DNA from: a virus
Strand: one strand, 5' to 3'
Length of the DNA: 25,214 nucleotides
IMG/VR virus record: IMGVR_UViG_3300046167_000567
Coordinates: 1 to 25,214 of that record
Below the pieces are notes generated by a model. The model saw only the letters and a list, made by a program, of their open reading frames with translations, ran no database searches and was not told the DNA's origin. Shown piece by piece: positions 697-13,277 of this stretch. The position numbers and the translations under genes are program-made. Position 1 is the first letter of the stretch, and every line of letters starts with the position of its first letter.

Positions 697-715
697 TTCG
701 TATTTTTAAAAACTA

Positions 716-739
716 CCCCCCCCTAAAGGGACATAGGGG
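716..739 (-). other. GC-rich hairpin in the terS-terL spacer
   Basis: Read on the minus strand, CCCCTA (739-734) pairs with TAGGGG (725-720) around an 8-nt loop, with four more G residues after it, then TAGTTTTTAAAA, just upstream of the terL ATG. It could be a weak intrinsic terminator, a translational control hairpin for terL, or part of a packaging site. Only the hairpin itself is directly visible. Confidence 0.35.
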
Positions 740-839
740 TATACATATATATAGGGTACCATGTCCAGCACCCCCGGGTAGTAATCACGCGTATATGTGC
801 ATAAAATAAGGGTTTCGCACACATGAAAAAAGTATCGCC

Positions 840-1475: not shown

Positions 1476-1523
1476 TTGACATGCAGCTTAACATATTATT
1501 TAATTGTATACATTGATTACATA
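1476..1523 (+). promoter_or_regulatory. Promoter P1 with downstream 19-bp element (early operon)
   Basis: TTGACA (1476-1481), 17 nt, TTTAAT (1499-1504), then TGTATACATTGATTACATA (1505-1523), which covers the expected transcription start. The same arrangement occurs at 7595, 12602 and 15621. Downstream come GGAGGG and the ATG at 1544, so this should drive the tiny-gene operon through to the methyltransferase. The element is an imperfect dyad (TGTAT...ATACA) and could be an operator. Confidence 0.62.
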
Positions 1524-1543
1524 CATACAGGAGGGAATCAATC

Positions 1544-1957: not shown

Positions 1958-2142
1958 TGGAAATATTTTTAACAGTAAAAAATGTTTACGGTAATAATTT
2001 AGTTTACCCTCAATGCATAACTTCTGAAAACCTAGCAAATTTTAAAGGGGTTAAGACATTCAAGGCGGACGATATTTGCATACTTTCAAAACTTGGCTAC
2101 AAGGTCACTTGGGTAGCACAAAAAATTCAGGGGGTAGCGTAA
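1957..2142 (+). CDS. Small phage protein, unknown function (61 aa)
   Basis: Not assigned a function. The opening MEIFLTVKNVYGNNLVYP resembles small proteins seen in many phages, where a strand-rich N-terminus (VKNVYGN) is followed by a short helix and a closing KLGYKV strand; this likeness is from memory. It starts at the TAATG junction with the previous gene, with AAGGAGGTAGCG as its ribosome-binding site, and ends in another TAATG junction with the next. Its C-terminal residues (GVA) and those of the previous protein (EVA) are both encoded by a GTAGCGTAATG linker. Confidence 0.75.
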   Translation: MEIFLTVKNVYGNNLVYPQCITSENLANFKGVKTFKADDICILSKLGYKVTWVAQKIQGVA

Positions 2143-2453
2143 TGGAAGAATACATGGAGTACGAACAAGCCATGGTTGATTATGAGGATGACAACGATAT
2201 TGTATATTGTTGCTTTCCTCTAGACATTGGAAAGGTTGAAATCTTTATGCATGAAACATCAGCACACAAAGAACAAGGTATTACTTACAACATTTTTATC
2301 AATAAAAAAGAGTTTGATGGTGGTATCTATAGGCATGAACTCTTCCAAGATGCTGACGAGTTGGGAGACTTTGAGTTTGACCTATGCGTCATTGATGCTT
2401 TGCGATACATAAAACAAAGATTTCAAGAATCAAATTTAATAATTAATACATAA
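2142..2453 (+). CDS. Acidic small protein (103 aa)
   Basis: Not recognised. Very acidic: 24 Asp/Glu against 8 Lys/Arg, with a dense acidic N-terminus (MEEYMEYEQ...YEDDND). The start at 2142 is chosen because it shares the TAATG junction and has GGGGGTAGCG before it; an upstream in-frame ATG at 2076 would overlap the preceding gene by 67 bases and has no ribosome-binding site. Strong net negative charge would fit a DNA-mimic or inhibitor of a host nucleic-acid-binding enzyme, but that is only one possibility. Confidence 0.75.
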   Translation: MEEYMEYEQAMVDYEDDNDIVYCCFPLDIGKVEIFMHETSAHKEQGITYNIFINKKEFDGGIYRHELFQDADELGDFEFDLCVIDALRYIKQRFQESNLIINT

Positions 2454-2463
2454 GGGGTAAATA

Positions 2464-2619
2464 ATGAATTTTAATATCAACATACAAAAACAAGGCGGTT
2501 TCTATGAACTGTCTTGTGTTCACTTAGGGCTAAGAGTTAGTAAGGTATATCATGGGTATTCACTTGCTGATTCTATCAAAGCATTTCAAGAATATTTAGA
2601 TTATGGGTTTGGGGGGTAA
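2464..2619 (+). CDS. Small hypothetical protein (51 aa)
   Basis: Not recognised. ATG at 2464 is preceded by AAGGGGTAAATA, a good ribosome-binding site. The predicted peptide has an N-terminal strand region, a central aromatic segment (KVYHGYSLADSIKAFQEYL) that looks helical, and ends YGFGG. It lies 10 bases after the previous gene and 2 bases before the next, consistent with a co-transcribed gene rather than spacer. Confidence 0.65.
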   Translation: MNFNINIQKQGGFYELSCVHLGLRVSKVYHGYSLADSIKAFQEYLDYGFGG

Positions 2620-2621
2620 TC

Positions 2622-2810
2622 ATGGCACAGTTTAAGGTGATTAAGGTTTCAAAGATTGTATCTGTTGGATATGTTGAGGCTAAAGATAGGGATGAGGCTT
2701 TAGAGTTTGGTGTTAGTTGTTGCGTCTTAGAAGATAACCCTGATTTTATTATAGATAATATAGAAGATACGGTTGAGGTTGAGACTGTTAGTATTACTGA
2801 TGAGGAATAA
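2622..2810 (+). CDS. Acidic small protein (62 aa)
   Basis: Not recognised. 16 Asp/Glu against 5 Lys/Arg, with an acidic tail ending VSITDEE. GGGGGG lies 5 bases before the start. The DNA for the last residues belongs to a 100-bp repeat: at 4011-4029 a near copy can still be read as SITDEQ-stop although no gene precedes it in that frame, so the repeat was probably duplicated from (or to) the 3' end of this gene. Confidence 0.72.
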   Translation: MAQFKVIKVSKIVSVGYVEAKDRDEALEFGVSCCVLEDNPDFIIDNIEDTVEVETVSITDEE

Positions 2811-2893
2811 TTTTCCGAAACTTTCTTTTTTCCCCAAATCGAGGGGCGGAGAAAGTCTAATACATATACGAACATTAAAGGAGGGAATATATG
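2791..2893 (+). repeat. Hairpin leader repeat, copy A
   Basis: About 100 bp, closely matching 4011-4110. It contains the end of the upstream gene, a hairpin (ACTTTCT 2820-2826 pairing with AGAAAGT 2850-2856; inner CCCC 2832-2835 with GGGG 2843-2846), then CTAATACATA, then an AGGAGGGAAT ribosome-binding site and ATG. Stem bases are the same in both copies while the loop differs, which supports a functional RNA structure. It has no U-run after the stem, so it is not a classical terminator. Confidence 0.8.
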
Positions 2894-3427
2894 CATACAT
2901 TTGAAGTTGATACATGGATATTCTTTGACAGAGATTCTTTTAATCTCAAGGGATATAGATATAACTTTTGTGAAGGGAAGCAGAATCTTTTAGAGATTAA
3001 CAAAATTGATCTTCCTAAGCTTAAAAAGGAACTAAGTTCCTATCATTATGATTGGGCAACAGACGGAAGCGATACAGTCATTTTTTCAGAAGATGACTTT
3101 GAGGATACCTATAATCCTTTTAGGGGTTTAGGTTGGGTTGATTATTATAAAGACCTAGACATTCCCAATGATTGGGAAAACATATCTTATTCTAATGATG
3201 AACTACCTAGTTTTTTATATAAGGATTATCAGATTTGGATTAATTCGCCTTTGCTTAGTGAAAGGCAGGAAGGATATCTTGGTATAGGGTTTGAAAACTT
3301 AGATAATTATAAGGATTGGAGGTTTGCAGTTTGCAACTACAACGCCAACGACTGCGAAACGCAAGACGAAATATTTACAAGCTTAGAACTAGGCGAGGTT
3401 ATTAATTTTTTAAAGGAGCAAGACTAA
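2891..3427 (+). CDS. Hypothetical protein (178 aa), first gene after leader copy A
   Basis: Not recognised. Longest unknown of the early operon. It is acidic and unusually rich in Trp, Tyr and Phe, giving a compact, soluble-looking protein without membrane segments. Translation starts after AAAGGAGGGAATAT, the ribosome-binding site inside the repeated hairpin leader. The C-terminus FLKEQD is encoded by the linker that also forms the next gene's ribosome-binding site (AAGGAGCAAGACTAATG), and stop and start overlap by one base. Confidence 0.8.
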   Translation: MHTFEVDTWIFFDRDSFNLKGYRYNFCEGKQNLLEINKIDLPKLKKELSSYHYDWATDGSDTVIFSEDDFEDTYNPFRGLGWVDYYKDLDIPNDWENISYSNDELPSFLYKDYQIWINSPLLSERQEGYLGIGFENLDNYKDWRFAVCNYNANDCETQDEIFTSLELGEVINFLKEQD

Positions 3428-3633
3428 TGGATATAGGAAATAATTGCGTATGTTGTAATCAAGATACATCTTTTGGAAGTGGTAGATTTGTAAACAGAAT
3501 ACCCTCAGATGCAGAATACGAAAGTCTTGATGATAAAGGTAATACTATCTTTGCAGAAGAAGAATACAGGGATGGGTATTTATGTCCTAATTGTCAAATG
3601 AGTGAAGAAGAATTTGAGGAGTTATGCCAATGA
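3427..3633 (+). CDS. Putative zinc-binding acidic protein (68 aa)
   Basis: Function unknown. Two cysteine pairs, C7-x2-C10 (with an extra C9) and C53-x2-C56 in the context YLCPNC, suggest a small zinc ribbon. The C-terminal region is strongly acidic (SEEEFEEL). It starts on the RBS linker at 3413-3429 and its stop overlaps the next start (ATGA). Small zinc-ribbon proteins in phage early operons often bind host enzymes or nucleic acid; that role here is only inferred. Confidence 0.72.
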   Translation: MDIGNNCVCCNQDTSFGSGRFVNRIPSDAEYESLDDKGNTIFAEEEYRDGYLCPNCQMSEEEFEELCQ

Positions 3634-3854
3634 AACATTTTAAAAATAGGGAGTTTAGTTTGTTTAATTATATGTGTGACATTCTTTATGACTTCTACGA
3701 AAGGAATGAATTAGAGCATATGTGTGCTTTAGATTCTCTTTCGGTAGGTAATTATAAAGATACTAAGCATTATCTATTCTTGCAGAGGTTCTGTGATGTT
3801 TGGGATAGGGTTGAGCAAAGGGAAGTTAATATTAATTTAAAGGAGCAAAGATAA
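3630..3854 (+). CDS. Hypothetical protein (74 aa)
   Basis: Not recognised. Mostly helical-looking with many aromatic residues. The start at 3630 is preferred over an ATG two codons earlier because GAGGAG (3616-3621) is 8 nt upstream of it and the ATGA overlap with the preceding stop is the usual coupling in this operon. The C-terminus NLKEQR is encoded by the next ribosome-binding linker (AAGGAGCAAAGATAATG). Confidence 0.68.
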   Translation: MKHFKNREFSLFNYMCDILYDFYERNELEHMCALDSLSVGNYKDTKHYLFLQRFCDVWDRVEQREVNINLKEQR

Positions 3855-4006
3855 TGAATGCAAAGCAAATAGAAGCAGTTAAAAGCCTAGTTGATGACTT
3901 GGGTTGGGATTATCAGTCTATGACGCAAGGAGGAAGGGATACCTATAAGAAGTTATGTCTTGCCCTTGGGTGGGTTTTTGAATGGGATGATGAAGAACTT
4001 GGTTAA
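3854..4006 (+). CDS. Small hypothetical protein (50 aa)
   Basis: Not recognised. Helical N-terminus (MNAKQIEAVKSLVDDLGWDY) and an acidic Trp-rich end (GWVFEWDDEELG). It begins at the TAATG junction with the preceding gene on a strong AAGGAG site. Just after its stop lies the second copy of the hairpin leader repeat, so this gene ends one sub-block of the operon. Confidence 0.65.
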   Translation: MNAKQIEAVKSLVDDLGWDYQSMTQGGRDTYKKLCLALGWVFEWDDEELG

Positions 4007-4010
4007 TACA

Positions 4011-4110
4011 GTATTACTGACGAGCAATGATTTTGCGAAACTTTCTTTTTTCCCCAACCAAAGGGGTGGAGAAAGTCTAATACATAACAAACCATAGGAG
4101 GGAATGTATG
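4011..4110 (+). repeat. Hairpin leader repeat, copy B
   Basis: Near copy of 2791-2893. The hairpin stems are kept exactly (ACTTTCT 4040-4046 with AGAAAGT 4070-4076; inner CCCC with GGGG 4063-4066), while the loop changed from AAATCGA to AACCAAA. It starts with GTATTACTGACGAGCAATGA, a leftover of the 3' end of the gene at 2622-2810 that no longer belongs to a gene here. It supplies the ribosome-binding site for the gene at 4108. Confidence 0.8.
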
Positions 4111-4290
4111 AGGGTACAAATTAAAGGAACAACCATATTTGGTTATATTAGGGAGGACTTGCAAGAGTCCAGATCCTCAAAAAAAATTAGTTTTTTAGAT
4201 GAGGAAACCAATGAAATTATAAAAGTAAATTCAAATCAATTAAAAGAAACATATGAAAGGGAGGGAATCAATCATGGAACAAATAGATAA
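4108..4290 (+). CDS. Small hypothetical protein (60 aa)
   Basis: Not recognised. Strand-rich, basic N-terminal half and a charged C-terminus. Start follows the AGGAGGGAATGT site of leader copy B. The last residues (EREGINHGTNR) are read through the next gene's GGGAGGGAATCAATC leader and start codon, a 17-base overlap, so the C-terminus is probably shaped by the downstream leader having been inserted there. Confidence 0.62.
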   Translation: MRVQIKGTTIFGYIREDLQESRSSKKISFLDEETNEIIKVNSNQLKETYEREGINHGTNR

Positions 4291-4552
4291 AATGGATGTT
4301 GGTAATTGGGTAAACCAATTTGATTACAATTCAGCAGAGGAGTTCATAGTAGAAATCTTACAAGGCAAAGTGGCTATTGAGAAAATGCATGACTCTGTAT
4401 TGCAATTGAGAAGTGGCAATCTTGATGATGCAACAGAACTACAACAAGAAATGTACTATGAAGACAAGATAGAGGTTGAAGAGGGAGAATGGGGAAGACA
4501 TGAAAGGCACATGGAGTCTATAAACAAAGCAAGGAGCAAGACTAATGAATAA
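4274..4552 (+). CDS. Acidic hypothetical protein (92 aa)
   Basis: Not recognised. Acidic, helical-looking protein (about twice as many Asp/Glu as Lys/Arg). The start at 4274 is chosen because it has the leader GGGAGGGAATCAATC eight bases away, the same leader as the first gene of the operon; an in-frame ATG at 4253 lacks a ribosome-binding site. It overlaps the preceding gene by 17 bases and the following one by 8 bases. Confidence 0.72.
   Translation: MEQIDKMDVGNWVNQFDYNSAEEFIVEILQGKVAIEKMHDSVLQLRSGNLDDATELQQEMYYEDKIEVEEGEWGRHERHMESINKARSKTNE
4530..4551 (+). repeat. 22-bp RBS linker, exact copy at 4700-4721
   Basis: The sequence CAAGGAGCAAGACTAATGAA plus two more bases occurs identically at 4530-4551 and 4700-4721. 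Close relatives span other gene junctions at 3413-3429, 3840-3859, 4823-4839, 5115-5131 and 5292-5309. Each contains ribosome-binding site and start codon of the next gene, and most also encode the last residues (KEQD, KEQR, EEQDQ or QEQTQ) and stop of the previous one. Confidence 0.85.
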
Positions 4553-4715
4553 TAATTATACTTTATGGGAATCAGACTTTAATAATACTGAAGATTGGGA
4601 AACTGTTTGCAAGGCGTTTAAATTACCAAACAACACAACTTGTATAGATATTAAAGTTAGCAGTTTAATAACTGCTGAAAGAAACGCAATTGTATTTAAC
4701 AAGGAGCAAGACTAA
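4545..4715 (+). CDS. Small hypothetical protein (56 aa)
   Basis: Not recognised. Asn- and Thr-rich N-terminus and a short hydrophobic core (CIDIKVSSLI). Translation starts within the 22-bp linker at 4530-4551, overlapping the previous gene by 8 bases in another frame. Its own end, FNKEQD, is encoded by the second exact copy of that linker. Being flanked by two identical linkers makes it look like an exchangeable one-gene cassette. Confidence 0.65.
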   Translation: MNNNYTLWESDFNNTEDWETVCKAFKLPNNTTCIDIKVSSLITAERNAIVFNKEQD

Positions 4716-4840
4716 TGAATATGATTGAAGAACTACTTGATAAATACCATGTAGACGATTTTGATAATTTATTAATTGAGATTATCAAACATATGAAAGA
4801 CCGAAAAGAAATTATATATTCAGAGGAGCAAGACCAATGA
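4715..4840 (+). CDS. Tiny hypothetical protein (41 aa)
   Basis: Not recognised. Acidic, probably one helical hairpin (MIEELLDKYHVDDFDNLLIEIIKHM). The start shares the TAATG junction inside the exact linker copy at 4700-4721, and the tail SEEQDQ is encoded by the next linker. Too short for homology-free assignment; the consistent operon spacing is the main support. Confidence 0.55.
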   Translation: MNMIEELLDKYHVDDFDNLLIEIIKHMKDRKEIIYSEEQDQ

Positions 4841-5001
4841 AAGTAAATAAAAGTATAACAATCGAGAGAATAAAAAACATTGCAAAAGATATTATTGCTG
4901 ATGATGGATGGGTGAACGATAGCCATACTAAACGAGAACATGAGGGTATCAAGGATGGATTAAATAGACTGATAGAACACCTAGAGGAGGTGCAAGAATG
5001 A
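4837..5001 (+). CDS. Small hypothetical protein (54 aa)
   Basis: Not recognised. Amphipathic, mostly helical peptide (ITIERIKNIAKDIIADDGW, then GLNRLIEHLEEVQE). ATGA overlap with the previous stop, GAGGAG site, and ATGA overlap with the next start. No membrane segment or metal-binding motif. Confidence 0.58.
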   Translation: MKVNKSITIERIKNIAKDIIADDGWVNDSHTKREHEGIKDGLNRLIEHLEEVQE

Positions 5002-5132
5002 ACTGTGAATTATGTAATAGCGTTGGGTGGATTGATACATTCAATACAGAAGACCAAGTGCAGGAAATACAAAAATGTGATGACTGCAATATTTACCAAA
5101 CAGATAAAGAAGCACAGGAGCAAACACAATGA
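4998..5132 (+). CDS. Tiny four-cysteine zinc-finger-like protein (44 aa)
   Basis: Function unknown. Cysteines at C3-x2-C6 and C27-x2-C30 (MNCELC ... KCDDC) make a classic four-cysteine zinc-binding arrangement in a 44-residue peptide. ATGA overlap with the preceding gene, GAGGAGG site 7 nt upstream. The tail QEQTQ comes from the next ribosome-binding linker. It could be a nucleic-acid- or host-protein-binding mini zinc ribbon. Confidence 0.6.
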   Translation: MNCELCNSVGWIDTFNTEDQVQEIQKCDDCNIYQTDKEAQEQTQ

Positions 5133-5293
5133 GTAAGATAACTAAAAACGAAGTAGCCGACATGTTGGGGTGTTCTGATATATCTAGCGATATAGATTAC
5201 AGAATAACTGAATGTGCAACCAAGGGCGTGGCGTGTATTGTTTATTTCTATGAAGATAAACTTAACGAAGAAGACCAAATAACAGCATATTAA
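5129..5293 (+). CDS. Small hypothetical protein (54 aa)
   Basis: Not recognised. The start MSKITKNEVADMLGCSD has a short helix-turn-helix flavour (EVADMLGCS), but the rest is strand-like and acidic (VACIVYFYEDKLNEED), so DNA binding is doubtful. ATGA overlap with the previous gene; its stop is part of the linker TAAGGAGCAA that serves the methyltransferase gene 10 bases downstream. Confidence 0.58.
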   Translation: MSKITKNEVADMLGCSDISSDIDYRITECATKGVACIVYFYEDKLNEEDQITAY

Positions 5294-5303
5294 GGAGCAA
5301 AAA

Positions 5304-6389
5304 ATGAATGTACTAAGCCTATTTGATGGAATGAGTTGTGGAAGAATTGCACTTGATAGACTTGGAATCAAGGTAGATAACTATTATGCAAGTGAGATAG
5401 ATAAGTATGCTATTGAAGTAAGTAAGGCTAACTACCCGGAAATTATCCAAGTTGGAGACATAACCAAGCTTGACTTGTCTACATTACCGCAAATTGATTT
5501 GATTATGGGTGGTAGTCCATGCCAAGGATTCTCTTTTGCAGGGAAGCAACTTGCTTTTGACGACCCCAGATCCATGTTGTTTTTTGAATTTATTAGATGT
5601 GTTGAAACATTAAAACCTAAATACTTCTTACTTGAAAATGTAAGAATGAAAAAAGAATACTTGGATGTTATCTCTGAATACATGGGAGTTGAGCCTATTT
5701 TTATAAACAGTTCTCTTGTATCAGCACAGTCAAGGCAAAGATATTATTGGACTAACATTCCAGGAATAGAGATGCCAAAGGAAAGGGGTATTGTTTTAAG
5801 AGACATATTAGAAGAGAACCCAAATGAAAACCCAACGAAAGATACCGCAAGAAATAGAAGACATTACAAAAATCTAGATGACAAGTCGCTTTGCATGACA
5901 GCAACCATGTATAAGGGAGCTGGGAACAATGGAATGACTTTAGTGCCTCAACATATAGGCACAGCGATTGATGTTAATGGGCATGACATTTTGAAAAGGG
6001 TCTATAGTCCAGAAGGAAAATCTCCAACAGTAAACACTTGTCAAGGTGGTAATAGGGAACCTAAAGTAGTCTGTGGAAGATACGTTGGAAGATATAAGGT
6101 GGATGGAGTGCGACAAGATCACAAAGGATCTATTGCAGGAAAGTCTAAGCAGATGCTTGAACTAAGAAGGGATGACAAAACCAACAACATATCTACAGTA
6201 CAAAAGGATAATGTTTTAGTTAAAGATGATGTTTATTGGAGAAAGCTTACGCCTTTAGAATGTGAAAGACTGCAAACCGTTCCTGATAACTACACCAACC
6301 ATGTCTCTAATACACAAAGATATAAGATGTTGGGCAACGGTTGGACTATAGAAGTGATTGCTCACATATTAAAGAACATGGAGTCTTAA
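5304..6389 (+). CDS. DNA (cytosine-5) methyltransferase
   Basis: Transfers a methyl group from S-adenosylmethionine to C5 of cytosine in a specific DNA site. 361 residues, a typical length for a phage Dcm-type enzyme. Conserved motifs in order: motif I LSLFDGMSCGRIAL (4-17), motif IV SPCQGFSFAG with catalytic C73, motif VI LLENV (109-113), motif VIII QSRQRYYW (142-149), a target-recognition region in the middle, and motifs IX-X near the end (LTPLECERLQTVP, KMLGNGW). AAGGAG precedes ATG at 5304. It is the last gene of the P1 operon and the gene here with the clearest anti-restriction role: self-methylation against host nucleases is the likely purpose. The nearest nuclease gene is convergent, so a restriction-modification pair is possible but not shown. 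Confidence 0.95.
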   Translation: MNVLSLFDGMSCGRIALDRLGIKVDNYYASEIDKYAIEVSKANYPEIIQVGDITKLDLSTLPQIDLIMGGSPCQGFSFAGKQLAFDDPRSMLFFEFIRCVETLKPKYFLLENVRMKKEYLDVISEYMGVEPIFINSSLVSAQSRQRYYWTNIPGIEMPKERGIVLRDILEENPNENPTKDTARNRRHYKNLDDKSLCMTATMYKGAGNNGMTLVPQHIGTAIDVNGHDILKRVYSPEGKSPTVNTCQGGNREPKVVCGRYVGRYKVDGVRQDHKGSIAGKSKQMLELRRDDKTNNISTVQKDNVLVKDDVYWRKLTPLECERLQTVPDNYTNHVSNTQRYKMLGNGWTIEVIAHILKNMES

Positions 6390-6892
6390 TTATTTTTTGA
6401 GATGTTTTTACACCAATCTATGAGTTCTTCTAACTCTAAGGTGTACTTCATCATATTTACTGCTAGACACACTAGGGCAATGTTACCCTCCTCGTAACCC
6501 TTAGTGTTGTCAATGCGGTCTATTGATATGTTTTGTAAGTGATATCCAGATCCGTCTTTTACATTAGTCATAGCCACCCCTGAATATTTACAGATTCCTT
6601 TTTGTGAATCGTATAACTTGTGTAGGTATTCTCTTGTTATATTAAACCTATGGGTTTTCTTTCTTCTGTATGCTAGTTGTCCGTATAGGTTGTTTATATA
6701 AAGATGTGGATTATTGCTGATTTTTTTTCTTTTCTCCGCCGAACGGCAGGGGCGACATTCTCTTCTTTTGTAGCCTTTAGCTACCTCATAGTCATCTATG
6801 TGCTTGTTGATTAAACAAGTCTTACATATCCTAGTCTTATGACCAGTCGTATGGGGTTGTGTCTTTAATTTCGATATCGAAGCTTTCAACAT
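6386..6892 (-). CDS. HNH endonuclease with N-terminal zinc finger
   Basis: Probable DNA nuclease of the HNH (His-Me finger) type. The N-terminus has two cysteine pairs, C23-x2-C26 and C46-x2-C49, forming a zinc finger; the C-terminal half holds KGICKYSG (C101), the nuclease core SIDRIDNTKGYEEGNIALVC (123-142) and VNMMK (145-149), a pattern known from phage HNH enzymes in which Asp replaces the first core His. 168 residues. The start at 6892 overlaps the upstream gene by 56 bases and has only a weak ribosome-binding site. Its stop overlaps that of the convergent methyltransferase by a few bases. It could be a free-standing homing-type nuclease, a packaging-associated HNH or a restriction partner of the methylase. 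Confidence 0.8.
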   Translation of the reverse strand: MLKASISKLKTQPHTTGHKTRICKTCLINKHIDDYEVAKGYKRRECRPCRSAEKRKKISNNPHLYINNLYGQLAYRRKKTHRFNITREYLHKLYDSQKGICKYSGVAMTNVKDGSGYHLQNISIDRIDNTKGYEEGNIALVCLAVNMMKYTLELEELIDWCKNISKNN

Positions 6893-7265
6893 CTTTTAAA
6901 GTCTCTCTAAATCTATTAACCGCAACCTTGCTAGAAGATACTGCTGATTGATTATCCATCAATCTTTCGCCAAGCAGAATACATCCATGAGAATCTTTTT
7001 CTGGAAAGTTCCCAACATGAAAAAGAATATATGTTCTGTTTTCTACATCAGTAACCTCGAATGTTTCTCCAAATCTTTTTGATGTATAAGCTTTACAGGT
7101 ATAGTTTCCATTGGGAATGCAGCTCACTTCTTTTTGATTGTTTCTCCAGGGACGTTCAGCAGTCCAAAAGACTTCAGTTCCTATGGTAAGTTTTCCCAAA
7201 GTTCCTTGTGGCATATATGCAATTCTCTCAAGAACAGCGTCTGAATCTTTTTTATTAAAGAACAT
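6837..7265 (-). CDS. DUF5675 family protein, possible peptidoglycan-acting lysis enzyme
   Basis: Matches the DUF5675 pattern: an N-terminal strand region (GTLGKLTIGTEVFWTAERPW), SCIPNGNYTCKAY (48-60), FEVTDVENRTYILFHVGN (69-86) and DSHGCILLGE (91-100). H83 followed by S92-H93-G94-C95 resembles the active-site signature of YkuD-type L,D-transpeptidases (H ... [ST]HGC). Function of the DUF is not established; a cell-wall role is inferred from this motif and from the XhlA-like membrane protein gene just upstream. ATG at 7265 is used; a TTG at 7286 would add seven residues and a longer overlap. Overlaps the upstream gene by 11 and the HNH gene by 56 bases. Confidence 0.8.
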   Translation of the reverse strand: MFFNKKDSDAVLERIAYMPQGTLGKLTIGTEVFWTAERPWRNNQKEVSCIPNGNYTCKAYTSKRFGETFEVTDVENRTYILFHVGNFPEKDSHGCILLGERLMDNQSAVSSSKVAVNRFRETLKDVESFDIEIKDTTPYDWS

Positions 7266-7524
7266 AAGTAAACACTGCTCCGCCAATTCCTATAATAGAA
7301 CCAATCACCACGCCACCTATTATTCTTTCAGCCCACTTAGACTGAACATTGTCCCTCATTTGAGACTGTTCAAGAGTTCTAAGTCTTACTTCGTGATCTG
7401 AAGATTGACTCAATGATCTTCCTATTCTCTCTTCAAGCACTGGTATATGCCTAACAAAAGAAAGAACCTCTTCCATGTGCTTCTCCAAGTTTGCTATACG
7501 CATTTCTATGCCTGTTGCTTCCAT
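7255..7524 (-). CDS. XhlA-like membrane protein (holin-associated)
   Basis: 89 residues: a long charged coiled-coil region (about 8-60, with IANLEKHMEEVLSF and EVRLRTLEQSQ heptads) followed by a single C-terminal membrane segment (about 68-88, IIGGVVIGSIIGIGGAVFTYV). This layout is that of haemolysin XhlA-type and holin-accessory proteins of phages. It lies immediately upstream of the DUF5675 gene and probably helps release or localise it at the membrane during lysis. The ribosome-binding site is poor (A-rich leader). It faces away from the promoter at 7595. Confidence 0.7.
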   Translation of the reverse strand: MEATGIEMRIANLEKHMEEVLSFVRHIPVLEERIGRSLSQSSDHEVRLRTLEQSQMRDNVQSKWAERIIGGVVIGSIIGIGGAVFTYVL

Positions 7525-7594
7525 TTTTTTTATTAAAATGTGTGTGAATAATACTGTAAAGATACATTAATTAATAAATAAAACAATATTTCGA

Positions 7595-7642
7595 TTGACT
7601 ATAAATTGTTATGGTCTTATTATCGTAATCATTAATTACATA
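7595..7642 (+). promoter_or_regulatory. Promoter P2 with downstream palindromic element (nrdR-like gene)
   Basis: TTGACT (7595-7600), 17-nt spacer, TATTAT (7618-7623), then CGTAATCATTAATTACATA (7624-7642). Within the element GTAAT-N5-ATTAC (7625-7639) is a perfect dyad centred near the expected +1, the best operator candidate of the four related promoters. AAAGGGGATGACAAG and the ATG at 7657 follow, so it drives a single 53-residue gene before convergent minus-strand genes begin. Confidence 0.72.
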
Positions 7643-7656
7643 AAGGGGATGACAAG

Positions 7657-7818
7657 ATGGTTTGCTATGAATGTGGAACTGACACTAGGGTTATTGATGT
7701 TAGAAAGTTTGTTGATGGTACTGTTTTAAAAAGGAGAAGAGAGTGCTTGTCGGAAACATGCAGAAATAGATTCACTACTTATGAAGAGCCTCATAAAGAA
7801 AAGAAGAAAAAACTATAA
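7657..7818 (+). CDS. Stand-alone NrdR-type zinc ribbon (53 aa)
   Basis: Resembles the N-terminal zinc ribbon of NrdR, the repressor of ribonucleotide reductase genes: C3-x2-C6, [21 protein letters not shown] (10-30) and RFTTYEEP (38-45) align with the DNA-binding part of NrdR. The ATP-cone that makes NrdR respond to nucleotides is absent; the protein ends in a Lys-rich tail. The second cysteine pair is C30-x4-C35 instead of the usual x2. It may act as a DNA-binding regulator of phage promoters or of host nucleotide metabolism. Monocistronic behind P2; its last bases overlap the convergent gene. Confidence 0.82.
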
Positions 7819-8010
7819 AAGGTCTATTGTTTTTGATGCTTCTTCAAAATTCTTTCCAAGCCCAGACCATTCTAAGTCTCCTGATATCCTATAAATCCAT
7901 CCAGTCAACTTATGTCTTTTGCCGTAGGGGTTTGTTGGAATCCATCGAAGAGAAACTCTTTCGAATCCTTTTTCCTTAAATAGATTAATGAGTTCTTCTT
8001 TTTTGCTCAT
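7813..8010 (-). CDS. Small hypothetical protein (65 aa)
   Basis: Not recognised. [23 protein letters not shown] begins a helix-then-strand fold, followed by a basic stretch ([26 protein letters not shown]) and a terminal helix ([12 protein letters not shown]). ATG at 8010 is preferred, giving a 26-base overlap with the upstream gene; another ATG at 8040 would add ten residues. The stop lies 6 bases inside the convergent zinc-ribbon gene. Confidence 0.65.
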
Positions 8011-8152
8011 TGCTAAAATACCAGTCCCAATACTCTTCATAGATTTCTCTAAATTCTTTTAGTGTTGGGATAATTAAATGTGGGGTTTCTTTAAACGAGG
8101 CAACATATACCCTGTAGGCAGTATGTAATTCCTGTTCGCTATATAAGATCAC
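7985..8152 (-). CDS. Small hypothetical protein with GTG start (55 aa)
   Basis: Not recognised. The frame from GTG at 8152 to TAA at 7985 reads as a sensible peptide rich in aromatic and charged residues (YSEQELHTAYRVYVASF, EFREIYEEYWDWYF) and would otherwise be an unusual 160-base gap. It has no in-frame ATG; a weak AGGT precedes the GTG. The reading frame is closed upstream by TAA at about 8183. Supported by composition and by the overlap pattern of neighbours, not by homology. Confidence 0.5.
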   Translation of the reverse strand: MILYSEQELHTAYRVYVASFKETPHLIIPTLKEFREIYEEYWDWYFSNEQKRRTH

Positions 8153-8200
8153 ACCTATTATGATAAACGAAATTGTAAATTAATTCATCTAAGATATATT

Positions 8201-8536
8201 TTAGGGACTTTTTTTCTTTCCGCCTTTGCCTGCCCATAATACTTTTCTCGCCCAGTGGTTTGCAGAGAACTTATCATCCTTCGTAAGCCCACCAGATTTG
8301 TTCTTGATTCCTGCGGATCGTTTAAGATAGTTGTCCCTAGCTTTACTAGAGTAATTATGACCATAGTCTTTATGACCAAATCTGACGACCTTAATTTCAT
8401 TACCCTTTTTAGCAAGAACCTCCATCTTGTGTTTGCTTGACCCACTGTTTCTTTTTGGTTTGTTAAACCCAGGGTATTTCTTACCCCTGTAAACGACTCC
8501 GTTTGAAACTCTTTTAGTATCTTTTACTGTAGCCAT
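8201..8536 (-). CDS. Basic conserved phage protein (111 aa)
   Basis: Function unknown. Strongly basic, with the recognisable core GVVYRGKKYPGFNKPKRNSG (13-32), LAKKGNEIKVVRFGHKDYGHNY (41-62), KARDNYLKRSAG (66-77), DDKFSANHWARKVLWAG (87-103) and a Lys-Ser-Pro tail. Proteins with this GFNKPKR...RFG...ARKVLWAG pattern occur in many marine and other small tailed phages (from memory). Stop-to-start overlap (one base) with the upstream gene at 8536 indicates translational coupling in a basic-protein cluster. Nucleic-acid binding is likely from charge; a virion or DNA-packing role is inference. Confidence 0.82.
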   Translation of the reverse strand: MATVKDTKRVSNGVVYRGKKYPGFNKPKRNSGSSKHKMEVLAKKGNEIKVVRFGHKDYGHNYSSKARDNYLKRSAGIKNKSGGLTKDDKFSANHWARKVLWAGKGGKKKSP

Positions 8537-8778
8537 TATCTTTTCCTTCCCTTGTGCAGTCCGTGTTTGGCATGTTGTTTACCCTTTGCGGTTGCTTTTC
8601 TCTTGACTGTGTTTGCTTTAGATAGTTTCTTCCTACCCTTGGCTGTGGACTTCAACTTAGCAATGGTCTTGGCTGGAGCATAAACCTCTCCAGTCTTGCT
8701 AGATTTTTTACCACTAGCTGTTCTCCATTTTTGTTTTGTCCATCTTATTAAAGACTTTTGTGCTTTCTTTAAAGGCAT
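8536..8778 (-). CDS. Very basic phage protein with SL-WTKQKWRT motif (80 aa)
   Basis: Function unknown. More than a third of residues are Lys or Arg. The N-terminus KKAQKSLIRWTKQKWRTASGKKSS and the following EVYAPAKTIAKL match a small-protein family common in marine phages (from memory); the C-terminal half is a low-complexity Lys/Arg/Gly/Ala tail like that of histone H1-type proteins. Coupled by a one-base overlap to the downstream gene and 3 bases from the upstream gene. Probably binds DNA or RNA. Confidence 0.8.
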   Translation of the reverse strand: MPLKKAQKSLIRWTKQKWRTASGKKSSKTGEVYAPAKTIAKLKSTAKGRKKLSKANTVKRKATAKGKQHAKHGLHKGRKR

Positions 8779-8781
8779 AAC

Positions 8782-8913
8782 TTATTTCTTTTTAGCGTTA
8801 GCCCTGCGTCTTACCCTTGAGACTTTTCTCTTGGGTTTAGGTTTCTGCATTAAGTGTTGTTCTTGCCTGTTAAGGCTCCACTCAATAAACCTGTCAAATA
8901 ATTTACCAATCAT
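8782..8913 (-). CDS. Tiny basic protein (43 aa)
   Basis: Not recognised. Short amphipathic N-terminus (MIGKLFDRFIEWSL) followed by a dense basic tail (KPKPKRKVSRVRRR and KKK). Starts with ATG at 8913 after a strong GGAGG site, overlapping the upstream stop by 4 bases (ATGA). Belongs to the run of basic mini-proteins. Confidence 0.65.
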   Translation of the reverse strand: MIGKLFDRFIEWSLNRQEQHLMQKPKPKRKVSRVRRRANAKKK

Positions 8914-9095
8914 TTTTTATATCCTCCGCCCTTTGCTCGATACATTTTTGCTAACATTTGGGCTTTTCTTGCTGACCACTGACCAGCTCTACCACCTTTT
9001 GATCCTGCCTTTATACGATTAAACAGGTTCTTACGCATGGTTGGTTTCGTATAGTTACCAGCAGAGTTGACTGTGGATTTCTTTTTAGAAGCCAT
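8910..9095 (-). CDS. DUF5872-like basic protein (61 aa)
   Basis: The segment LFNRIKAGSKGGRAGQWSARKAQMLAKMYRAKGGGY (24-59) fits the DUF5872 pattern (Lys/Gly-rich GGxxGQWSARKAQxxxxxYxxxGGGY), found in phages and some giant viruses. No biochemical role is known. The N-terminus is Lys/Asn/Thr-rich (KKKSTVNSAGNYTKPTMRK). Start at 9095 is at a TAATG junction with the upstream gene. The positive charge and tandem position among other basic genes suggest nucleic-acid binding. Confidence 0.8.
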   Translation of the reverse strand: MASKKKSTVNSAGNYTKPTMRKNLFNRIKAGSKGGRAGQWSARKAQMLAKMYRAKGGGYKK

Positions 9096-9184
9096 TACTT
9101 TTTCTTTTTAGCGGTTTTCTTTTTTCCTTTTTTCATTGGCGGTCTTCCAACTTTAGATCCGTATGTTCCTTTTCCTTGTGGCAT
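9095..9184 (-). CDS. Tiny Lys/Gly-rich peptide MPQGKGTYGS type (29 aa)
   Basis: A 29-residue peptide: MPQGKGTYGSKVGRPPMKKG followed by a poly-Lys tail. Peptides starting this way are recurrent in marine phages next to DUF5872-type genes (from memory), which together with the clear GAAGGAGAT ribosome-binding site and TAATG coupling supports it as a real gene despite its length. Function unknown; composition is protamine-like, and the GRPP segment resembles an AT-hook core. Confidence 0.68.
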   Translation of the reverse strand: MPQGKGTYGSKVGRPPMKKGKKKTAKKKK

Positions 9185-9186
9185 AA

Positions 9187-9480
9187 TTATCTCCTTCTAA
9201 ATTTTCTAACTACTTTATTATAGACCATTCCCTTCATACTCTTAAGTGATCTGGTATGATCTGGTAATTCTTCCCATGCTTTCTTTCTTTTTTCCCGAGT
9301 CGAAAGCCTTGCAATAGTATTGCAGACTCCCATCTGCATAGATAAAAGATACAACAAATCATAAAACTTTTCATCTACATCTTCTAAATATTTTATTCTA
9401 TCCGCCTGTGATGGCATGTTAGCAATCTTGTGTGCATAGCTAAGTAAATCTATATCTCCAAAGACGGTAACATGTTTCAC
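9187..9480 (-). CDS. Hypothetical protein (97 aa)
   Basis: Not recognised. Helical-looking protein with an acidic/neutral N-terminal half (DIDLLSYAHKIANMPSQADRIKYLEDVDEKFYDLLYLL) and a basic C-terminus (GMVYNKVVRKFRRR). It overlaps the upstream DUF3310-like gene by 4 bases (ATGA) and lies 2 bases before the basic mini-gene cluster, so it is part of the same transcript. Confidence 0.75.
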   Translation of the reverse strand: MKHVTVFGDIDLLSYAHKIANMPSQADRIKYLEDVDEKFYDLLYLLSMQMGVCNTIARLSTREKRKKAWEELPDHTRSLKSMKGMVYNKVVRKFRRR

Positions 9481-9770
9481 TTCTTGTTTTGCATGTCGTG
9501 GTTGTACAGTGCAAAGAACCCATAATGAATTACTTTAAGTATGTCAGCCCTGTTCTTGCCTTCTTTTTTGCCATAGCGTTGTGCATATTTCATCACGTTG
9601 CCCATACAGAAGCCCTCTCCATGACCACTGTCCATGATAAATTCTGTAGCCTGAAATTTGTTTAAGGAATAGTGTTGCTCGTATGTTTTATCTACATACT
9701 TTGCGAACTCGTTAATCAGCTCGCCTTCGTTGTACTTATAATTTATTTTTTCTTTTTTTCTTTTTGGCAT
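9477..9770 (-). CDS. DUF3310-like phage protein (97 aa)
   Basis: The core HYSLNKFQATEFIMDSGHGEGFCMGNVMKYAQRYGKKEGKNRADILKVIHYGFFALY has the DUF3310 layout: HY, an 'xFI' helix, GNxxKYxxRYGKK and a terminal helix. The family was once called phage nucleotide kinase-like, but no activity is proven. It lacks a P-loop. The N-terminus is basic (MPKRKKEK). It lies between replication genes and the basic-protein cluster and overlaps neighbours on both sides, indicating one operon. Confidence 0.75.
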   Translation of the reverse strand: MPKRKKEKINYKYNEGELINEFAKYVDKTYEQHYSLNKFQATEFIMDSGHGEGFCMGNVMKYAQRYGKKEGKNRADILKVIHYGFFALYNHDMQNKK

Positions 9771-9886
9771 TTATCTTCCTTATTTTTTTTATTAAAAATC
9801 TTATCCCAGTTTTCTGAATATAGTTTTTCGTTAGAGTTTCTTCTTACAGAACCCTTGCCGCCTTTCCACTCTCCATGATTACTCAT
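9743..9886 (-). CDS. Tiny basic protein MSNHGEWKGG type (47 aa)
   Basis: 47 residues, MSNHGEWKGGKGSVRR at the start and a Lys-rich end. A similar N-terminus occurs in small phage proteins near DUF3310-like genes (from memory). Good GGGAG site 9 nt before ATG at 9886. It overlaps the upstream nuclease gene by 8 bases and the downstream DUF3310-like gene by 28 bases in another frame. Function unknown. Confidence 0.65.
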   Translation of the reverse strand: MSNHGEWKGGKGSVRRNSNEKLYSENWDKIFNKKNKEDKCQKEKKKK

Positions 9887-10181
9887 TGTTTATTAACTCC
9901 CTAAGTTTTATTAAAAGATCAGTTTGTTTTCCGTATCTTTTTTCAAACTCTCGTTTAAAAGGATGTCGTGAAACATAAAGATCGTTGTTGATTCCTTCTC
10001 TGTGATGTTTGTAACAGAGGCTTAACGACATCAAGTGTGCGTTTGGTTTTGTTTTTCCATCTATATGATGCACCTCTGACGGAGAATAACAATCGTAGAA
10101 AAGATGACAGACAATACATCCAAAGTTAGATATAGCATCCATCCAATCTTTCTCTTCTTTATTTGGGGATCTGCCCTGCAT
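9879..10181 (-). CDS. Ref-like HNH nuclease (RecA-dependent nuclease family)
   Basis: 100 residues resembling phage P1 Ref C-terminal nuclease domain and its many phage relatives: C22-x2-C25 (GCIVC), SPSEVHHIDG with H38-H39, SLCYKHHREG with C56 and H59-H60, then HPFKREFEKRYG. In the family these residues bind zinc and form the HNH active site, which cuts DNA at RecA-made displacement loops. Being in the operon with dnaB, it probably serves replication-linked recombination or DNA processing. Start at 10181 overlaps the upstream small gene by 23 bases. Confidence 0.82.
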   Translation of the reverse strand: MQGRSPNKEEKDWMDAISNFGCIVCHLFYDCYSPSEVHHIDGKTKPNAHLMSLSLCYKHHREGINNDLYVSRHPFKREFEKRYGKQTDLLIKLRELINNE

Positions 10182-10317
10182 ATTTCTTTAATAACATTTT
10201 GTTGTTAGCCTTAATATAATCCTCGAAGCTTATTTCTTTCTCGTTATGCTTTCTTCTTTCAGACCTGCACTCTTCATGCATCATTCTGCAAAAGCTTTTA
10301 AAATTATCATGCCCCAT
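10159..10317 (-). CDS. Small basic hypothetical protein (52 aa)
   Basis: Not recognised. Helical, charged peptide (CRMMHEECRSERRKHNEKE, then FEDYIKANNKMLLKKYAG). ATG at 10317 with GGAAAG nine bases upstream. It overlaps the upstream gene by 11 and the downstream Ref-like gene by 23 bases in different frames; without it there would be a 125-base gap in an otherwise gap-free operon. Confidence 0.6.
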   Translation of the reverse strand: MGHDNFKSFCRMMHEECRSERRKHNEKEISFEDYIKANNKMLLKKYAGQIPK

Positions 10318-10642
10318 ATCTATTTCTTTCCATCCTCAAGTTTGCCATTTTTGTTCTCCATTCCTCAAACTGCATATCTACTGCAAGTTTTTCTGTTTGT
10401 AGTGCATCAAGTGATGCTTTGGCAACAGCAACCTTCATAGATGCCTGGGCGTATTCATCAGTAGATTCTGCTTTAGATTTTTGAGAGTTATAACTTCTCT
10501 CCCCCTCTTCTTTTGCTATACAAAGCTCTCTCCAAAATACCCTTTTAAGACCAACATCTGCCTTAAGGACATTTACTCTAGCCTCTGATATCCTTGGTAT
10601 TATGTCTCTTAATTGTTGATGAAAATTTTCAGATTGGTCCAT
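10307..10642 (-). CDS. Coiled-coil protein, unknown function (111 aa)
   Basis: Not recognised by motif. Almost entirely helical with long heptad-like runs (IPRISEARVNVLKADVGLK; TDEYAQASMKVAVAKASLDAL; EKLAVDMQFEEWRTKMANLRM). No zinc or nucleotide motif. It starts 14 bases inside the end of dnaB, so translation is coupled to the helicase; a helicase-loading or single-strand-binding helper role is possible but unproved. Confidence 0.72.
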   Translation of the reverse strand: MDQSENFHQQLRDIIPRISEARVNVLKADVGLKRVFWRELCIAKEEGERSYNSQKSKAESTDEYAQASMKVAVAKASLDALQTEKLAVDMQFEEWRTKMANLRMERNRYGA

Positions 10643-11933
10643 ATTCTTTTTTCCTCCCGAAAGCCCTGTCTTCTGGGTCTATAAACTTGGATAGTGAGCC
10701 ATCAAAACTTAGTTCAAATGTTCCCATCTCTCCCATTCTATTCTTTTTAACTATCACTTCAGACAAACCTGTGTCTAATGCATCATAATAATCTTCTCTA
10801 TACAGCATTATAACCATATCCGCGTCTTGTTCTATAGAACCAGAGTCTCTTAGGTCTGAAAGCAATGGTCTTTTATCTGGTCTTGATTCAACACCACGAT
10901 TGAGTTGAGATAAGGATATTAAAGGACAGCCTATTTCTTTTGCCAATCCTTTTAAAAGGTTTGATATATAAGTCATAGATGCTGTTCTGTTATCTGATCC
11001 TGCTGGTGCTTTGCTTGTTGTCATTAAAAGCTGTAGGTAGTCCACAATTATTAAGTCTATCTGCTTGACCGCTTGAATTGATTTGGTTTTGTTAACAAGA
11101 GTCTCTATTGTTATTGGAGACTTATCGTAAACATATAAGTTAGATTGAGATAATTTGTTTTTTGTTTCTTCAAACAATCTCCAATCTGATGCTGTTAAAT
11201 TTCCGCCGTCCATTTTGTCAATAGATATTCCCGATTCAGAACTTACAATCTTTTTTATAAGCTGCTCGTTTGTCATCTCAAGACTAAAAATTAATACGTT
11301 TTTATGTGCAAAAATATTATTTGTTGCTATATTTAAAGCCCATGTTGTCTTACCCATTCCCGGTCTACCTGCAACTATAACCAAGTCCCCTGGTTTAAAT
11401 CCTCTAATTTTTTTATCTATTTGCGTAAACCCTGTCTTTACTATGTTCTGTAAATTTGTTCCTGCATTTTTTAATTCTTGATGAACTGTCTCAAGTATGT
11501 CCTTAATCTCTCTTGGTGTTCCATTGTTTTTTGTTATCTTATTGTCTATAAGTAACTGATTTACCGTGTCTATTTTTTCTGCTATGCTTATTTTTTCCCC
11601 AACAATTCTTGGTATTTCTTCAGCAAGTCGCAATAATTTATTATTAGCTGACTTGTCTTGCATAAGATCAATCCACCCATCAAATCCTGCTGAGCTTACA
11701 CAGTAAGCACTTGCTTCTTGCACCTCCTTAAACATAATATCATTATCCATATTTGTTCTAATAGTAACTATGTCATTTGCATTTTCTCTAATCATAATTT
11801 CGTAAGCGTTCTTATAAGAAATTACATCAAAGTCATCTGGCATCAATCCTTTTTCTTGTGCACTTTGAAATCTTTTATAATCCAAAACCATTGAGCCAAT
11901 TATGTTTGCCTCTAACTCATAAATATTATCCAT
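10629..11933 (-). CDS. dnaB: Replicative DNA helicase, DnaB family
   Basis: Hexameric 5'-3' helicase that unwinds the replication fork. 434 residues, slightly short of bacterial DnaB (about 470). An N-terminal DnaB-type helical domain (ELEANIIGSMVLD, 6-18) is followed by the RecA-like domain with Walker A GRPGMGKT (189-196), Walker B LIIVDYLQLL (294-303), LSQLNRGVESR (341-351) and DLRDSGSIEQDADMVIML (360-377). No intein or fused primase is present. Its start overlaps the end of the winged-helix replication gene by 8 bases, so the pair should act as initiator and helicase. No polymerase, primase or separate loader is seen in the window, so the phage likely borrows the host's. Confidence 0.95.
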   Translation of the reverse strand: MDNIYELEANIIGSMVLDYKRFQSAQEKGLMPDDFDVISYKNAYEIMIRENANDIVTIRTNMDNDIMFKEVQEASAYCVSSAGFDGWIDLMQDKSANNKLLRLAEEIPRIVGEKISIAEKIDTVNQLLIDNKITKNNGTPREIKDILETVHQELKNAGTNLQNIVKTGFTQIDKKIRGFKPGDLVIVAGRPGMGKTTWALNIATNNIFAHKNVLIFSLEMTNEQLIKKIVSSESGISIDKMDGGNLTASDWRLFEETKNKLSQSNLYVYDKSPITIETLVNKTKSIQAVKQIDLIIVDYLQLLMTTSKAPAGSDNRTASMTYISNLLKGLAKEIGCPLISLSQLNRGVESRPDKRPLLSDLRDSGSIEQDADMVIMLYREDYYDALDTGLSEVIVKKNRMGEMGTFELSFDGSLSKFIDPEDRAFGRKKEYGPI

Positions 11934-12558
11934 ATCTTCTCTCTATTATTGCTTCAAATTGATTTAGACCTATCATTGTCATAAGGGTTGGTTTCTTAGC
12001 CCAGAAAGATCTAATCCATTTTTTATGACCATCTGAATTTGCTATCTCAAAATACTTATACCAAAACTCTTCAGTGCTTAAATCTATTTTCTTGCCTGTC
12101 TTTGGAGATATTATTCCTTTTCTCCCCAATTCACGCAGCTCTTTCCATCTTGTATTGGCTTTGAATGAGTTAGCACTATGCTGATAAAAAACCTTATCGC
12201 ATTGCTCTTTATAAATTTCATTCATCCTATCTAAATCTAATATATATATTTGTTTAGTATTACCTTTAGTATTGTAGCCACCTGACGGCGGGGGGTAGCC
12301 ACCTGACGGCGACACCTTTAACTTATAAAGATTGCTTGTATTATTTCTTTTTTCCCAATCTAAGTATCCTATTTCCCTAAGCTTTTTAAGATTATCTTTT
12401 ATAGCTGTAAGAGATAGGTTGGTAAGTTCTGTTAACTTTCTATGTGATGGATATGACTGACCAAATTCATCAGAATAATTTGCTAATACTATTAGTATAA
12501 GTTTTTGCGTAGAGTTAACTTCCACTTTTAAAACTTTAGTGATGTATTCCAATGACAT
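11926..12558 (-). CDS. Winged-helix replication initiator-like protein
   Basis: The N-terminal 80 residues form a winged helix-turn-helix (TQKLILIVLANYSDE, YPSHRKLTELTNLSLTAIKDNLKKLREIGYL), the HTH_36-type fold seen in phage replication proteins analogous to lambda O. A flexible linker (PSGGYPPPSGGY, 84-95) follows, then a C-terminal region with EFWYKYFEIANSDGHKKW that could contact helicase. First gene of the replication operon, immediately before dnaB. The linker DNA carries a 17-bp direct repeat, so the gene may also contain the origin, as in lambda. Start at 12558 follows CGAGGGAAAAT. Confidence 0.8.
   Translation of the reverse strand: MSLEYITKVLKVEVNSTQKLILIVLANYSDEFGQSYPSHRKLTELTNLSLTAIKDNLKKLREIGYLDWEKRNNTSNLYKLKVSPSGGYPPPSGGYNTKGNTKQIYILDLDRMNEIYKEQCDKVFYQHSANSFKANTRWKELRELGRKGIISPKTGKKIDLSTEEFWYKYFEIANSDGHKKWIRSFWAKKPTLMTMIGLNQFEAIIERRYG
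12274..12311. repeat. Tandem 17-bp GC-rich repeat inside the replication gene
   Basis: GTAGCCACCTGACGGCG occurs at 12274-12290 and 12295-12311, period 21 bp (two helical turns), separated by GGGG. It is markedly GC-rich in an AT-rich gene and encodes the repeated PSGGY. This position in the linker of an initiator gene is like the lambda origin iterons, so it may be a replication origin or initiator-binding site. Only two copies are present. Confidence 0.6.
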
Positions 12559-12578
12559 ATTTTCCCTCGTAAGAGAAC

Positions 12579-12608
12579 ATTAAAGCACATAAATATAATT
12601 ATTGTAAA
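12579..12608 (-). promoter_or_regulatory. Candidate promoter for the replication operon
   Basis: On the minus strand TTTACA (12608-12603), 18-nt spacer, TTTAAT (12584-12579), 20 bases before the ATG at 12558. Its -35 box occupies almost the same base pairs as the -35 of the divergent promoter at 12602, so RNA polymerase probably cannot use both at once. Confidence 0.42.
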
Positions 12609-12649
12609 TACTTGATTTAATATATTATAAAGAATACAATCATTCCAAG
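12602..12649 (+). promoter_or_regulatory. Promoter P3 with weak 19-bp element (recombination operon)
   Basis: TTGTAA (12602-12607), 17 nt, TTATAA (12625-12630), followed by AGAATACAATCATTCCAAG (12631-12649), which agrees with the element at 15650-15668 at 13 of 19 positions in the same register. AAGGAG and the erf ATG at 12660 follow. The half-site ATTAC is lost here, so any regulator should bind less well. Confidence 0.5.
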
Positions 12650-12659
12650 GAGAAATAAT

Positions 12660-13277
12660 ATGGCAAAAGAAAAAATATACGAAGCTTTACAGTGCGTTCA
12701 AGAATACATGGTTTTAAACCCTATCGCAAAAGAAGGCGTTAACAACTATCAAAAATATAATTACAGAGGTATTGACCAGATCATTCAGTCTTTTTCAAAA
12801 CCTTTATTTGAAAACAAAATATTAACAATTGTACAACCGGGGTTAAATGTTTCTACTAAATTTATAGACGGTAAGAATACTTTAACTAGAGTTGTTGGAA
12901 CTCTTAGGTTTTTATGTACAGAGGATGGGTCTTTTATTGACAGGTCTTATGTTGGTCATAGCTTATCACAACAAGCCAAAGACCTAGAGGCTGCAAGATC
13001 TTTTGCTTATAGAAATGCTTTATTGGAAACATTTTGTGTCCCTTTTGAGGGAGTTGTTGAACCAGAGATGGAAGGTGTTGATAAAAACTCAAAACCTGAA
13101 GCTGACCAAGAAGAGGTTTCTATTATAGAAGAGTTTAAAACACAACTTAGAAAGGTTTATAAAGATAAAGAAAAAGCCCTAAAACTATTTCAACAATACG
13201 ACAAGGTTGCAGAGCTTAGTAACGACAAAGAAACTAGAGTCCAGTTAAATCTTTTATACAGCAAGGTAGTTAAGTAA
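12660..13277 (+). CDS. erf: ERF family single-strand annealing recombinase
   Basis: Anneals complementary single strands during phage recombination and genome circularisation. 205 residues, typical for ERF. The family core is visible: NYQKYNYRGIDQIIQSFSKPLFENKIL (29-55), the strand pair around GTLRFLCTEDGSFIDRSYVGHS (80-101), and QQAKDLEAARSFAYRNALLETFCVP (104-128), which corresponds to the ERF helix with its conserved Ala/Lys pattern. The C-terminus is a charged linker and helices, likely for partner binding. ATG at 12660 follows AAGGAGAAATAAT. It ends one base into the YqaJ exonuclease gene, forming the common annealase-exonuclease pair. Confidence 0.92.
   Translation: MAKEKIYEALQCVQEYMVLNPIAKEGVNNYQKYNYRGIDQIIQSFSKPLFENKILTIVQPGLNVSTKFIDGKNTLTRVVGTLRFLCTEDGSFIDRSYVGHSLSQQAKDLEAARSFAYRNALLETFCVPFEGVVEPEMEGVDKNSKPEADQEEVSIIEEFKTQLRKVYKDKEKALKLFQQYDKVAELSNDKETRVQLNLLYSKVVK

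Follow-up and report, generated by a model that had tools for sequence, protein, structure and literature searches.

Ribbon-helix-helix (RHH) repressors are built of a short strand followed by two helices, with the base-contacting residues in the strand, and they characteristically autoregulate their own operon and occupy operators in which short subsites recur at a constant step, with one dimer on each. Among phage proteins of this kind, the Arc repressor of P22 measures about 53 aa. The repressors of phages L5 and phiC31 act through many dispersed operators. A report on mycobacteriophage L1 describes the same arrangement, with many scattered operators near promoters (PMC1934351). Arc represses its own promoter, PANT (PMC12111858). 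RelB of E. coli, an RHH antitoxin that is also an autorepressor, contacts bases through N5 and R7 of its N-terminal strand at the site [A/T]TGT[A/C]A, and its operator, relO, spans -10 to +17 of the promoter (PMC2812701). Each dimer of Omega (ParB) of plasmid pSM19035, also an RHH protein, occupies one short non-palindromic repeat, whichever way the repeat points (PMC9499535). No repressor homologue came to light in a search of T7-like cyanophages (PMC8776855), and integrase-carrying marine phages can be without a recognisable repressor.

The window analyzed here, by which the whole stretch of 25,214 nucleotides is meant, comes from an uncultured marine temperate phage, and a search for cultured relatives returned no close one. 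Four of its promoters (P1 to P4) carry arrays of 8-bp half-sites, TGTAAWCA, in exact 9-bp steps and in either orientation, which cover the promoter spacer, the -10 or the +1. With a probability of roughly 0.6, these are sigma70-type promoters whose covered cores are repressed by a 52-aa RHH protein encoded in the P3 operon. Like Arc, this candidate is a small phage protein, predicted to be of the RHH kind, and its PHROG family is named 'Arc-like repressor'. The Arc operator sequence probably differs from the arrays, the sites here are dispersed over four operons including that of the integrase, unlike those of Arc, and no counterpart of the separate P22 lytic-cycle repressor C2 was seen in this phage. 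The RelB residues I4-N5-L6-R7-I8-D9 are in register with the predicted strand I8-S9-S10-R11-I12-D13 of the phage protein (I-x-x-R-I-D), and the RelB subsite core resembles TGTAAWCA. However, RelB works together with a toxin co-repressor on a single promoter and its subsites are 6 bp long, whereas the phage has a 9-bp step at four or more promoters and no toxin partner recognized adjacent to its RHH gene. Omega, too, acts over several promoters, but its sites hold 7-10 repeats of the 7-bp WATCACW and have a partition role, compared with the 2-3 half-sites at a 9-bp step in the phage. The L1/L5 and phiC31 systems share with this phage the use of one repressor at many sites, but their repressors are larger and of another protein kind, with asymmetric or otherwise different sites. 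No paper found in a literature search combined all the features of a phage early regulon that is under RHH control and has dispersed sites.

Half-site arrays at four promoters

A sequence-only reading of the window had proposed that four -35/-10 pairs with 17-nt gaps (from 1476, 7595, 12602 and 15621), each followed by a shared 19-bp element, place the early operon, the NrdR-like gene and the recombination and integrase operons under one regulator. All four sequences are found at these places with that gap. A simple promoter scan returned 52 consensus promoters in the region compared to 60.9 +/- 8.5 in shuffles. As this is no excess, consensus hexamers alone prove nothing here, and conservation therefore had to decide. 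Relatives were obtained by searching a virus collection with four proteins, which gave about 100 loci; several of these records are fragments, and because all of the relatives descend from one phage group, the counts below are not independent trials. The sites proved to be kept in related phages, where a lack of conservation would have counted against the proposal.

The 19-mer of P1 agrees with that of P2 at 15/19 positions and with that of P4 at 16/19, which exceeds the chance matches to it in shuffled windows (0.25 at 15/19 or better, 0.02 at 16/19 or better). The likeness of these three sites thus stands, but P3 matches P1 at 12/19, which is chance level (85 real vs 76 expected), and an asymmetric 19-mer model was rejected on this account. 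The GTAAT-N5-ATTAC dyad described at P2 is present in the sequence, and a strict 17-bp palindrome, TGTAAWCAWTGWTTACA, fits both P1 and P2. The arrays of P4 and its homologues are direct or mixed, and for this reason a half-site model replaced the palindrome. What had been taken for one 19-bp unit is a set of 8-bp half-sites at 9-bp steps (Table 1).

Table 1. Positions of the phage features, putative promoters and putative operators in the window
Feature	Position	Strand	Details
IMG/VR virus record IMGVR_UViG_3300046167_000567	1..25214		25.2 kb, 35.6% GC
P1 promoter, early operon	1476..1504	+	-35 TTGACA (1476-1481), N17, -10 TTTAAT (1499-1504)
P1 operator, strong inverted pair	1505..1521	+	TGTATACA 1505-1512 forward, TGATTACA 1514-1521 reverse
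Early operon, P1-driven	1544..6389	+	last gene: C5 cytosine methylase
P2 promoter, NrdR-like gene	7595..7623	+	-35 TTGACT, N17, -10 TATTAT
P2 operator, strong inverted half-site pair, 9-bp step	7624..7640	+	CGTAATCATTAATTACA, just after -10
NrdR-like zinc ribbon protein, P2 target gene	7657..7818	+	53 aa, without ATP-cone; Pfam PF22811, E 5.8e-13
P3 upstream half-site	12603..12610	+	TGTAAATA (TGTAAAGT in relatives), just before -35
P3 promoter as conserved	12612..12640	+	-35 TTGATT (12612-12617), N17, -10 TACAAT (12635-12640)
P3 operator	12631..12647	+	AGAATACA 12631-12638 reverse; degenerate TCATTCCA 12640-12647
Erf/YqaJ recombination operon, P3-driven	from 12660 on	+	
Erf-like single-strand annealing protein, P3 operon gene 1	12660..13277	+	Pfam ERF 1.2e-07; phrog_155 3.7e-14
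RHH (Arc-like) protein, P3 operon gene 3	14226..14384	+	52 aa; phrog_3180 'Arc-like repressor' 9.2e-07
P4 operator, direct pair, 9-bp step	15650..15666	+	AGTTTACA 15650-15657, TGATTACA 15659-15666
Tyrosine integrase, gene 3 after P4	16162..16962	+	Pfam Phage_integrase 1.5e-22

A half-site matrix (8 bp; consensus TGTAATCA, in general TGTAAWCA) was built from P1/P2-type operators only. Applied to 17 distinct P4 regions, it identified 21 half-site pairs at spacing 9 and seven at spacing 18, where shuffles led to expectations of 0.23 and 0.17, respectively; pairs at other spacings nearly never occurred, and all orientation classes were represented. Genome-wide, strong pairs (score 16 or more) numbered 21 at spacing 9 compared to 0, 2, 3, 0, 1 and 1 at spacings 6, 7, 8, 10, 11 and 12, as counted in 19 records, for which six near-duplicates were dropped from the set of 24 and L190 was added. 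The 24 records contain 29 strong arrays, and in 27 of them a -35-like hexamer lies 19-21 or 29-30 bp upstream; one of the two exceptions is cut by the end of its record. Even a matrix made from the window's two sites alone produced 15 hits scoring 14 or more in 22 other records, compared to 3.25 in shuffles. From phage to phage the sites are limited to one small set of promoters, and divergent relatives keep them even upstream of a different gene. Within the window, pair scores are 21.2 for both P1 and P4, 18.6 for P2 and 14.1 for P3, where the pair keeps the 9-bp step and its second half-site is not conserved. It is near certain that this multi-promoter operator system is real, and the recurrence of the same half-site, step and position makes one shared regulator for all four operons, as originally proposed, a well-supported prediction.

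Promoter contexts among the relatives

The P1 operator begins directly after the -10 and has the 9-bp step; the forward label of TGTATACA is arbitrary because this half-site is its own reverse complement. Both P1 hexamers and TGTATACATTGATTACATA are identical in L086-L089, and in L088/L089 the 17-18-nt spacer is almost wholly changed with the operator unchanged. The operator occurs at P1 across G003-G018 with differing first early genes, and the site just 3' of the -10 reads TGTATTCATTGTTTACA, TGTAATCAATGTTTACA, TGGAATCAATGTTTACA or a near variant in the relatives compared (G003, G005, G010, G012, G014, G017 and G018). The 47.9-kb relative G024, which was held out of matrix building, has TGTAATCATTGTTTACA (score 24.0, a top-scoring P1 site) ahead of its first early gene, an array of three parts at P4 and the RHH protein, and a search of it for the NrdR zinc ribbon found none. 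The P2 promoter is kept in L077-L081, L084 and G002, the last with another gene downstream. Counterparts of the P2 operator are TGTAATCTTTGGTTACA in G011 and TGTAAACATTCATTACA in G002, and the sites of L079 (TGTAATCTTTAATTACATA) and L084 (TGTAATCTTTGGTTACATA) have the form TGTAA-N7-TTACA. Upstream of P2 lies an AT-rich block, TGTAAAGATACATTAATTAATAAATAAAACAATAT (7556-7594), which is also largely retained in G002 despite the different gene after P2.

At P3 the hexamers originally named, TTGTAA/TTATAA, do have a 17-nt gap, but they are not what the relatives conserve, and they were rejected as the promoter since TTATAA is not conserved. The relatives share TTGWTT-N17-TACAAT plus outer half-sites TGTAAA and TTTACA, and the conserved columns of 19 distinct sequences are TGTAAA, which is invariant, TTG (12612) and TTACAAT (12634-12640). 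The half-site AGAATACA reads TGTTTACA in relatives. It should be noted that the two conserved P3 half-sites lie 28 bp apart, which is not a multiple of 9 and runs against the 9-bp rule.

P4 had been named as the integrase promoter. The integrase is indeed downstream, but it lies two genes beyond the first, an unknown gene of ~94-104 aa. Members of the integrase family were found in all 23 ERF-bearing records (23/23). The operator includes a possible -10, TACAAT (15654-15659), and because the homologous place in relatives shows TTGACA-N17-TACAAT or TTTATA, the choice of -35 and -10 is ambiguous at this promoter. Orientations are forward-reverse-reverse in L046 and L190, forward-forward-reverse in L038, reverse-reverse in L010, L024 and the window, and forward-forward in L061 and L064, such that the 9-bp step is retained while orientation flips between homologous promoters. 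The listed start of the first open reading frame, 15658, overlaps the operator; comparison with relatives and the upstream GGGGAAATT suggest that its true start is the ATG at 15691.

The candidate binder and rival explanations

The 52-aa RHH protein probably binds all four putative operators. Its gene is the third of the P3 operon in 23/23 ERF-bearing records, and the conserved half-sites on P3 lie at the promoter of its own operon. The N-terminal strand, KKSISSRI, is almost unchanged over all members, and phrog_3180 is matched by 7 of the 13. Pfam RHH_3 falls below cut-off (0.048 for the window protein and 0.0014 for the best member), and the AlphaFold monomer, a low-confidence model (pLDDT 68) with two helices at 14-24 and 34-51, had no structural match to a solved relative in the PDB and did not confirm the RHH fold. 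The RHH assignment rests on the PHROG match. Where the step is fixed and the orientation free, as in these arrays, one dimer per repeat is called for, so RHH dimers would fit them, and a classical HTH dimer would fit less well because inverted pairs would be needed. For a regulator of the lambda CI/Cro type, an HTH_3 repressor that often has an S24 peptidase domain as well, searches detected no HTH_3 in 8 records and no peptidase S24 in 12, several of them partial, and the earlier remark that no CI-like repressor is visible holds in the records searched.

Some other phage regulator, such as the zinc ribbon or a small protein of the P1 operon, is unlikely to be the binder, although many early proteins match nothing and the zinc ribbon, whose own gene is P2-driven, occurs in every relative reaching far enough left except G024. 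That phage keeps arrays at P1 and P4 without a zinc ribbon, and for this reason the zinc ribbon is disfavoured and the RHH protein favoured of the two binders that the sequence-only reading had named. NrdR oligomerizes by means of its ATP-cone, and an NrdR regulon is recognized by a zinc ribbon together with an ATP-cone. The 53-aa phage protein contains the zinc ribbon only, and the array site appears to differ from the NrdR box. Against a small P1-operon protein, early-operon genes vary among relatives and the RHH protein does not. Co-occurrence with the arrays was discarded as a discriminator, both candidates being nearly universal in the main group, and an apparent lack of the zinc ribbon in G017/G018 was an artefact of ORF length. 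The second cysteine pair of the zinc ribbon is CX4C in the window and close relatives and CX2C, as in NrdR, in most others.

Binding by a host transcription factor, with the phage having borrowed the site such that early transcription tracks host physiology, appears quite unlikely; what speaks for it is that a search of 85,000 genomes (GTDB) for a related provirus via ERF or integrase found none. Control of phage genes by a host regulator has a precedent in CtrA and phages of Alphaproteobacteria, as one report describes (PMC9437464). However, the arrays lie over -10 and +1, as suits a repressor, host HTH dimers rarely use 9-bp steps of free orientation, and, as noted above, the sites are limited to a small set of promoters. 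Further, G022 (L141-L142), another phage type represented by a single partial record, also has the first P1 gene (53% identity), with no half-site upstream of it and no RHH gene. It would be very improbable for the arrays to be mere extended promoter sequence, favoured bases near the -10 and start that strong promoters have in common, with no binding protein, even though part of the array coincides with the -10 hexamers TACAAT and TTTATA at P3 and P4. The two half-sites of P1, and likewise those of P2, follow the -10 and are fixed while the spacer changes, and the P4 homologues hold the 9-bp step constant as orientation flips. An activator in place of a repressor is likewise very improbable; it would suit the imperfect hexamers at P3 and P4, but P1 and P2 have a near-consensus -35 and a usable -10, and operators with their centre near +1 typically serve repression.

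G022 has no ERF, RHH or integrase family members and shares several small basic proteins with the group, from which it seemingly differs in replication type.

Predicted circuit and observations on the early operon

In the preferred reading, the RHH protein would bind as stacked dimers, one per half-site, and block RNA polymerase, and P1 (early), P2 (NrdR-like), P3 (recombination) and P4 (integrase) would therefore be repressed, as the position of the arrays suggests. Early after entry, P1-P4 would be free and transcribed by the host polymerase, and the output of P3 would be Erf, the YqaJ exonuclease and the RHH protein. The accumulating protein may then fill P1, P4 and P2, where the arrays are strong, before it reaches the weaker site at its own promoter, P3. 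As P3 is the weakest operator and its operon includes the RHH gene itself, the result would be negative feedback: with P3 filled last, early, recombination and integrase transcription would drop together and the RHH protein would settle at a steady level. Its role may be a Cro/Arc-like shut-off in the lytic cycle, or maintenance of lysogeny. The sequence-only reading had suggested a possible lysis-lysogeny switch, and an early shut-off of the Cro/Arc kind fits the data too. It is a doubtful extension that the RHH proteins of 52-57 aa are the group's only specific repressor, doing the work of both CI and Cro via orientation-free 9-bp arrays at the early, recombination and integrase promoters.

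Here, sequences of uncultured phages from one group yield a conserved operator system together with a small candidate repressor, and the control of lysis and integration in such phages can now be tested directly with one small protein and short oligonucleotides. Other contigs can also be searched for the regulon by means of the half-site matrix and its 9-bp rule.

The P1 operon itself contains a hairpin sequence (ACTTTCTTTTTTCCCC...GGGG.GGAGAAAGT) in two near-identical copies (2820-2856 and 4040-4076), just upstream of the genes at 2891 and 4108, and one copy recurs in G001 and G011 at homologous places. The second copy (4040-4076) folds better than shuffles (z -2.3), and the copies are possibly an RNA processing or attenuation element.
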